DNA of 44,251 bases, taken from assembly GCA_030038275.1 (NCBI GenBank), contig JASHPG010000185.1:1-44251 (forward strand), given 5' to 3'. Source of the stretch: Candidatus Acidiferrales bacterium (lineage in GTDB: Bacteria > Acidobacteriota > Terriglobia > Acidiferrales > UBA7541). Positions within the stretch are counted from its first letter, which is position 1. The number at the start of each line of letters is the position of its first letter. The translations under genes and the position numbers were made by a program. Below the pieces are notes generated by a model. The model saw only the letters and a list, made by a program, of their open reading frames with translations, had not been told where the DNA came from and made no database searches. Below are positions 38,103 to 42,183 of the stretch, piece by piece.

Positions 38103-38636
38103 ATGAGCGTCGTAGCACCACTCCCGAAAGAGAAAGCGGCCCCCGAACTTCACGCCACGTACGATGCGCTCGCGAAAAATTTCGGCAAGATGCCGGAAAT
38201 TTTCGGACTAATGGCGCATCGGCCCGACGTTCTCCACAAATTTCTGCCGCTGTATTCCGCGATTATCGAAGGCGGGACGGTCGAGCATCGATACAAAGAA
38301 CTCGCCTACCTGAAGACCTCTTTGATCAATGGCTGCGAATATTGAATGCGCGCGCATATTGCTTCGTCGAAGCGAATCGGCCTCACTGACGAGCACATTC
38401 GCGCTCTCTCGTTTTACGAACGCAGCCCGCTTTTCGACGAGAAGGATAAGACCGTGATTCTCTATGCCGAGCGCGTTACTCGCGGCGCATCCGCCATCCG
38501 CGACGCCGCGGTTAAAGAGCTGTCGAAGTTCTTCGACGACGGCCAAATCGTCGAGCTAACGCTGGTGGTCTGCGTCGCGAATTTCACCAACCGCTTCAAC
38601 GACGCCCTTCGCGCCACGCCGGATCTAGGCGTCTAA
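38103..38636 (+). CDS. AhpD-like selenoprotein (CxxU)
   Basis: Read through the in-frame TGA at 38343-38345, the gene gives 177 residues. ATG 38103 follows GGAGG by 5 nt. The protein is of the AhpD/carboxymuconolactone decarboxylase type: ELAYLKTSLINGC78-EY-U81-MRAH85 is the C-x-x-C-x3-H redox motif, with Sec in the second position. Helices with HIRALSFYERSPLFDEKDK and VELTLVVCVANFTNRF follow, as in the family. A 7-bp hairpin with loop GUC lies after the TGA. An ATG directly after the TGA could mislead gene callers into two genes. Peroxide or disulfide reduction is likely. It is in an operon-like position behind the ThDP enzyme gene and converges on an aldo/keto reductase gene. Confidence 0.87.
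38359..38375 (+). promoter_or_regulatory. Predicted bacterial SECIS hairpin of the AhpD-like gene
   Basis: UUGCUUC pairs with GAAGCGA (7 bp, one U-G) around the 3-nt loop GUC. The loop begins 20 nt after the UGA and starts with G then U, as in known bacterial SECIS loops. Confidence 0.75.
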
Positions 38637-40464: not shown

Positions 40465-40926
40465 TTATGACTTTACCCCGATCGTGAACTGCTTGCCCTT
40501 CTCTCCTACCTGGAAGATCAGCAGCTTGGCTGGCTTGGTTTTGCTCAAATTCTTTAACATCTTGTGAACATGCATCGCCGGCTCGTAAAAATAATCTCCC
40601 GGACCGTATCGCTTGGGAGGATTCGGCTCGACCTGATTTTCGATCTCGCCTTCCAGAATGTACGCGAATACCGGCCCAGTGTGCTCGTGCGGCGGCGAAA
40701 CCGTGCCCGGTCCCACTTCGAGCGTAATCACGCTGACTTCCGGATTCGGAATGTCTCCCAGAGGCTCTTCCATCAGCGTTTTCACCGGCGACATCCCGTG
40801 CATGTGTCCGTGGCCGGCTTGCTGCGCGGCTGCTGTTTTTGGGTCCAGCAGCGAAGCCGCTCCGCCTACCAAAGTAGCAGCGACGGCGGCGGCCAAAGCT
40901 CCGCTCATTTCACGACGAGTCATCAT
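40465..40926 (-). CDS. Tat-exported cupin protein
   Basis: A 153-residue protein with a twin-arginine-type signal: MTRREMSGALAAAVAATLVG at the start, cleavage near AAAQQ. The mature part has a His/Met-rich stretch (GHGHMHGM) and one cupin domain: PPHEHTGPVFAYILEGEIE is motif 1 with the metal-binding His and Glu, and GDYFYEPAMHVHKML is motif 2. It probably binds a metal ion in the periplasm; the reaction is not known. AAAGGAGG lies 9 nt before ATG 40926; an upstream ATG in frame (40956) would bury the twin arginines. Confidence 0.85.
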   Translation of the reverse strand: MMTRREMSGALAAAVAATLVGGAASLLDPKTAAAQQAGHGHMHGMSPVKTLMEEPLGDIPNPEVSVITLEVGPGTVSPPHEHTGPVFAYILEGEIENQVEPNPPKRYGPGDYFYEPAMHVHKMLKNLSKTKPAKLLIFQVGEKGKQFTIGVKS

Positions 40927-41100
40927 TGCGAAGTTCCTCCTTTTGCGTTTCCGCAAACTGTTTATTAGCTCTTCGTCACGGCCCGCGTGCCCGGGTCCCC
41001 AGCGAGCCGCACTTGTTTGCTGAGGCGTGATCTTACACCGCGGCGCTTCTTAACGGCACGCCGAAGGTTCACGACGTCGGACCATATATCTCAATTCGCC

Positions 41101-42183
41101 TCACGATTTGTTCGATCCACCCGGAATATAGAGTTGGGTGTGCGGATGGAACTCCGACCACGCAAACCAGAACTCCGGCTCGAGGATCAGGCGCTTCAGA
41201 TGAGCGCCTTTGAGCTTCCCGCTAAGGCATTCGCCGTATGCATTCCACGTCGAATGCGTTTCGAGGTCCGCTAGGCGGCTCGCCGCGGCATTTTCAGCGC
41301 GGAAGCGAAGCGTTTTGCCGTCCGCTTCGGCGACGTAAGCGGTTGTAGCATCCGAAGGAGGCTGGTGAATGATGACGACCGCTGTGCCGCCGACGCGGTC
41401 ATTCACGACGCGAACTTTGTTGAGCGCTGCTATGGGATACGCTTTTGCGACGCCGCCGGTCTCGAATCCGACGACCGTGTCGCGCGGCCGTAACCGATTA
41501 TCGTGGCCGATCGAACCGAACGGCGCCGGTCCCGCCATCCCCGAAACGCCTTGGTTGATGATTTTATTTTCAGCCGGCATGCGCTCCGCATAGCCCGGCA
41601 GCGGCTTCAAAACGAGCGTGCCTGGATGCTGGCTGCGCCACTCGCTCCAAGTGGTCTCAAGGAAGGGATAAAGCTGGAGGTGCGTGCCCTTGAGCGGGCC
41701 GGACGTGGCTTCGAGCGATGATTGTTGCCATTTGCTGCCGGTCTGCCGGTCTTTGAATACCTCGTTGCTGCCAACCACGCCAGCTGTATCGAACTGAAGC
41801 GCTTTGCCATTCGCTTCGGCCCTGAACACGAGGGCCGTGTTGCAGTAGCCTCACCAGGTGATGGCGATCGGACCATCCGCCACGACGTCCTGCACCACTC
41901 CGTGCTGCGAAAGAATCGCCGCAGGATATGCCTTTGTGGTTTTTCCGTCGCTGACTCCCAACACGATGTCCTTGGGCCCCAGGAAACTCGCCTGCGATGC
42001 TGAAACAAATTGCGGATGATCGATCGTTGCGTAAGGTAGATTCTGCGCCGGCGCCTTCGCCTTTGACATCTTCGTTTGTGCCCGTGCCACCGTTCCAAAG
42101 CTGAGAGTTGCCGCAAACGCTAGAGCCATCGAAACGATCACGCCTCGTACCGACCAGCTAATCGCTGTGCTTTTGTGCCGCAT
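41101..42183 (-). CDS. Exported DUF3179-family selenoprotein (UxxC), internally duplicated
   Basis: Read through the in-frame TGA at 41851-41853, the gene gives 360 residues. ATG 42183 has GAGG 7-8 nt upstream, and a signal peptide (residues 1-36, ending ARAQ) directs export. The DUF3179 (PF11376) core is visible: VLGVSDGKTTKAYPAAIL, then IAITW-U111-GY-C114-NTALVF, then VFKDRQTGSKWQQ and WSEWRSQHPGTLVL. Cys homologues of this family normally read TWCPLCNTAL, so Sec replaces the first Cys. Residues 235-360 repeat the same layout (VVGFETGGVAKAYPIAAL, then IIHQPPSDATTAYV) with Q274 and S277 in place of the redox pair. The frame also runs upstream to 42999, without signals. A hairpin with loop CGUGUUC follows the TGA. 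Function unknown; a periplasmic redox role is inferred. Confidence 0.85.
41817..41837 (-). promoter_or_regulatory. Predicted bacterial SECIS hairpin of the DUF3179 gene
   Basis: CGGCCCU pairs perfectly with AGGGCCG (7 bp, six of them G-C) around the 7-nt loop CGUGUUC. The loop begins 20-21 nt after the UGA and has G as its second base. Confidence 0.75.

Follow-up and report, generated by a model that had tools for sequence, protein, structure and literature searches.

The window, i.e., the whole stretch of 44,251 nucleotides that was analyzed, contains a gene for a DUF3179 protein with a TGA codon that is predicted to be read as selenocysteine (Sec), a putative SECIS hairpin 3' of this codon, a cupin gene directly downstream, and a second putative selenoprotein gene (Table 1). 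The first-pass annotation had placed the DUF3179 gene at the same positions but without a strand, which was found to be the minus strand. The gene starts with the ATG at 42183-42181 and ends with the TGA at 41103-41101, and the TGA at 41853-41851, which had been named as the sole interruption, is indeed the single stop within the frame. The family core reads ITW-U-GY-C-NTALVF, as claimed before. The readthrough product matches PF11376 with 230 bits (gathering cut-off 27) over profile positions 6-292 of 292. Its N terminus resembles a signal peptide, with a hydrophobic stretch at about residues 15-30 and an ARA-Q site (judged by eye), which supports the earlier view that the protein is exported. 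When the whole window was scanned for TGA codons with an open frame and a hairpin, 15 candidates were obtained, among which the DUF3179 TGA ties for the highest hairpin score; the other top scorer is flanked by frames of just 50 and 68 codons. Standard annotation of the DUF3179 gene would result in two false ORFs.

Table 1. Positions of the genes and sequence elements of the window that are discussed in the text.
Feature	Position	Strand	Remarks
DUF3179 gene, predicted selenoprotein	41101..42183	-	360 aa, Sec at 111; PF11376 E 4.5e-68
TGA predicted to encode Sec (U111), the U of UxxC	41851..41853	-	TGA/Cys-codon column in homologues
Putative SECIS hairpin, 7-bp stem and 7-nt loop CGUGUUC	41817..41837	-	covarying at a near-fixed position; not present in Cys homologues
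Small exported cupin (Cupin_2), likely start ATG 40926	40465..40956	-	conserved neighbor of the window DUF3179 subfamily
AhpD/CMD-like gene, putative selenoprotein, motif CEYU (CxxU)	38103-38636	+	TGA 38343-38345 and hairpin

The AhpD/CMD-like gene has a hairpin of its own (TTGCTTC-GTC-GAAGCGA), the loop of which lies 20 nt after the TGA. CMD-like proteins with a CxxU motif are listed selenoproteins, and the best NCBIfam match of this gene is NF053654 (YciW-related (seleno)protein), with a score below the cut-off.

At query residue 111, most DUF3179 homologues in the 95 genomes of the order have a TGA. A scan across the species genomes of GTDB yielded 80 loci, which, by their titles, stem from Acidobacteriota, Chloroflexota, Methylomirabilota, Thaumarchaeota, and others. 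After the removal of duplicates, the column of U111 comprises 40 homologues with TGA, 51 with a codon for Cys, for the most part within CPLC, and two with Ser, namely L128 and the distant partial match L040. This agrees with the first-pass proposal that the TGA occupies the place of the first conserved Cys of the family. The presence of the same TGA in independent genomes in effect excludes a sequencing error, i.e., a TGC or TGT misread as TGA. The motifs of the window clade are UGYC, USYC, USFC, and USVC, with UALC at its base, while the other Sec motifs are UPLC, UPVC, ULKC, UPLA, and UPLT, and the Cys motifs are CPLC, CSVC, CTLC, CPLA, and CPLT. Sec is nearly always the sole such residue within the domain of UPLA and UPLT members, and CPLA members likewise have one, so that the second Cys of the motif is dispensable within the family. 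Most DUF3179 domains contain no additional Cys; the window clade has an extra one, C318/319, which, together with C114, is invariant across its core. On a tree that was built without the motif columns, the distribution of Sec and Cys requires seven changes, at least four of which are forced by starred branches, and the window clade forms one group of 21 rows, all of them Sec in that sample.

The hairpin (CGGCCCU-CGUGUUC-AGGGCCG, 41837-41817) begins 13 nt 3' of UGA 111, has a G as the second loop base, and its loop lies 20 nt after the UGA. Both the sequence and the comparison bear out the first-pass description of a 7-bp stem with this G at the right distance. Folding of the single sequence is unremarkable (z -0.4 to -1.5), and the SECIS assignment is therefore based on the comparison between homologues; an Rfam scan of the gene gave no match near a gathering score. 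The hairpins of the Sec homologues split into two classes with loops of seven and five nucleotides, and all seven pairs are formed in 19 of 22 and 16 of 18 homologues, respectively. The second pair of the loop-5 class is G-C in nine and A-U in nine sequences, and further pairs covary as well. The hairpin beats a synonymous-codon null at the 5% level in 31 of the 40 Sec homologues, and the mean hairpin score is 11.2 for Sec homologues versus 4.5 for Cys homologues. The mean MFE is -14.7 versus -6.9, a gap that may partly reflect GC content, because many of the Cys rows are AT-rich archaea.

The source assembly (4.07 Mb, 240 contigs, 88% complete) is derived from a soil Acidobacterium and contains the complete set of tRNA-Sec (64 bits, anticodon tca), SelA (567 bits), SelB (382 bits), and SelD (363 bits). 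The SelD gene (G000 C193:13778-14725, L130) has an in-frame TGA, and therefore SelD itself probably contains Sec. SelA is nearly universal in the order (82 of 95 genomes), so its co-occurrence with DUF3179 inside the order says little. The part of the gene 3' of the TGA is under purifying selection, with dN/dS values of 0.05 versus L021 and 0.11 versus L022. Across 250 genomes of the class, a wider search, which the first-pass annotation had called for, revealed additional TGA orthologues as well as three with TGC at position 111 (L167-L169). The latter belong to one genus, are 55-58% identical, have kept C319, and have a cupin nearby; L167 has a TAA inside the matched range. SelA is absent from two of their genomes (98% and 95% complete), neither of which has a SelB above the cut-off, the third (G173) has retained both, and both are found in all five genomes with newly detected TGA orthologues. 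These natural Cys orthologues offer the chance to see what Sec adds.

The cupin gene adjoins the DUF3179 gene in 28 of 30 window-clade loci, and in 19 of 21 once duplicate genomes are removed, counts that do not represent independent events because the loci share ancestry. The two loci that lack this neighbor are the basal L033 and L054, which lies on a short contig. The distance between the two genes ranges from -9 to 476 nt; they are on the same strand in the genus of the window genome, and convergent in many others. The conservation of proximity in spite of changing orientation argues for a functional link between cupin and DUF3179. The cupin was near none of the DUF3179 loci outside of the window clade. 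The pairing was detected only when the sequence of the cupin itself was used as a query, and no recurrent Pfam neighbor stood out when the Sec loci were pooled. At L167-L169, at least two cupin-like matches are present in tandem.

Neighbors of other DUF3179 subfamilies include ArsM (5), a TIGR04283 glycosyltransferase (5), MerA-like (5), and TVP38-like proteins (4), which suggests a part in arsenosugar-type pathways for some of these subfamilies. Neighbors of these kinds were observed at L087, L093, L098, L100, L106, L116, L117, L119, L123, and L125. TIGR04283 is present above the cut-off in 9 of the 95 genomes of the order, and in three genomes it lies near a DUF3179 match on the same contig (G094 C176, G048 C181, and G006 C75, a fragment). 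All TIGR04283 matches of the window genome are below the cut-off, and no ArsM, TIGR04283, MerA-like, or TVP38-like genes were found near window-clade loci. In Nitrosopumilus-type archaea (L064-L084) the gene for a Cys-containing DUF3179 overlaps or abuts a gene for a small membrane protein, and in many of them an apparent DoxX-type gene (assigned by eye) is located divergently upstream.

The AF2 model of the DUF3179 product (pLDDT 91) is mostly beta, with a repeated strand order that yields two similar lobes, and Sec111 is predicted to sit in lobe 1. The lobe modeled alone has a pLDDT of 95. Rieske folds, among them that of NirD, make up nearly all plausible matches of lobe 1 in a structure search against the PDB, with probabilities of up to 0.99, TM values by target of 0.5-0.62, and E-values of 0.03-0.5. 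Comparison of the lobe profile with 28 Rieske segments yielded a score of 17.4 versus 12.2 +- 2.5 for column shuffles (maximum 22), which is not significant, and it allows two registers, with H94 and U111 on the two ligand motifs or with D145-T148 on the second. On account of these E-values and this comparison, the Rieske-like lobe is a lead only. Sequence searches of the PDB with the DUF3179 product revealed no credible relative, and PHROGs contained no match.

Taken as a whole, the best explanation, an exported DUF3179 selenoprotein with Sec insertion and a redox mechanism, is very likely to be right, with steps that differ in their support. SelB and tRNA-Sec would insert Sec at UGA 111 under the direction of the hairpin, and the assignment of Sec to U111 is close to certain. 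Sec insertion, the interchange of Sec and Cys, and maintenance by selection have strong sequence support, while the later steps are those that we infer. The protein would be a thiol/selenol oxidoreductase of the periplasm with Sec111 as its nucleophile, which either Cys114 or, from the second lobe, Cys319 may resolve in the window subfamily, and the enzyme would work together with the metal-type cupin that is encoded alongside. Whether this redox mechanism with a cupin partner applies is an even call. The genome G173, which has a Cys orthologue and yet keeps SelA and SelB, counts against the best explanation. The rival view that the gene is decaying and its TGA a normal stop, or that the TGA is a sequencing error, has nothing but the presence of a stop codon in its favor and is in effect refuted by the dozens of independent genomes that share this TGA, by the lack of other stops and the purifying selection after it, and by the SECIS and the full Sec machinery.

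The earlier suggestion that DUF3179 proteins are thiol/selenol redox proteins fits the UxxC motif of the window subfamily, but the family as a whole does not adhere to a strict redox pair, because UxxA and UxxT members exist (UPLA, UPLT, and also CPLA), and the Sec/Cys pair is thus not essential to the fold. An enzyme with one selenol residue, peroxidase- or transferase-like, in which Sec performs the chemistry by itself and a second Cys is either incidental or just protective, would account for the UPLA, UPLT, CPLA, and CPLT members, the domains of which lack a second Cys but have kept the fold and the Sec or Cys. However, the invariance of C114 and C318/319 in the core window clade, and of C319 also in the Cys orthologues, suggests a role there, and such an enzyme is unlikely. 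A role of Sec/Cys in binding soft elements, for instance As(III) or Hg(II), in place of redox catalysis, would be in line with the ArsM, TIGR04283, MerA-like, and TVP38-like neighbors of some other subfamilies, but none of these genes is near the window clade, the steady neighbor of which is the cupin, and the TIGR04283 matches of the window genome stay below the cut-off, so this function is quite improbable. A more far-reaching version of the redox mechanism, which we regard as tentative and rather doubtful, is that the DUF3179 domain represents a tandem Rieske fold without cluster and with a Sec or Cys that has become the reactive residue, and that the Acidobacteriota subfamily and its metal cupin form a conserved two-gene exported redox module, parallel to the arsenosugar-linked subfamilies.

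Judged by these comparisons, the window gene is a real selenoprotein gene, as the first-pass annotation had proposed on the basis of the TGA; the machinery, the TGA/Cys column, the SECIS, and selection support this. Of the three outcomes that it had named as refuting, none came up. However, its suggestion that Sec may be new for the family is not supported, because two reviews already list DUF3179 (pfam11376, UxxC/T) as a selenoprotein family (PMC9312934, PMC13188914; both citing Zhang & Gladyshev 2007). Like the window protein, the listed proteins belong to PF11376 and have a UxxC motif with Sec as its first residue. Their motifs are UxxC/T, while UxxA, the cupin neighbor, and the third Cys are features found here; the 2026 review does not mention these, nor Rieske folds or arsenosugars. 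In the literature searched here, no function or catalytic activity was found for any member. What is added here are the pairing with a cupin, the Cys swaps within the clade, and the UxxA variants. The analysis thus confirms Sec in an exported DUF3179 and makes its function testable via the cupin partner, the Cys orthologues, and the arsenosugar-type neighbors of sister clades.

Lobe 1 of the window protein has its best PDB matches among Rieske-fold proteins, including NirD, but the CxH...CxxH cluster ligands of Rieske proteins are missing from its readthrough product. UxxC-type motifs are well known from thioredoxin-fold selenoproteins, some of which are exported. The DUF3179 protein of the window has a motif of this type in common with them, but its predicted fold, mostly beta and built as a tandem repeat, differs from the thioredoxin fold.
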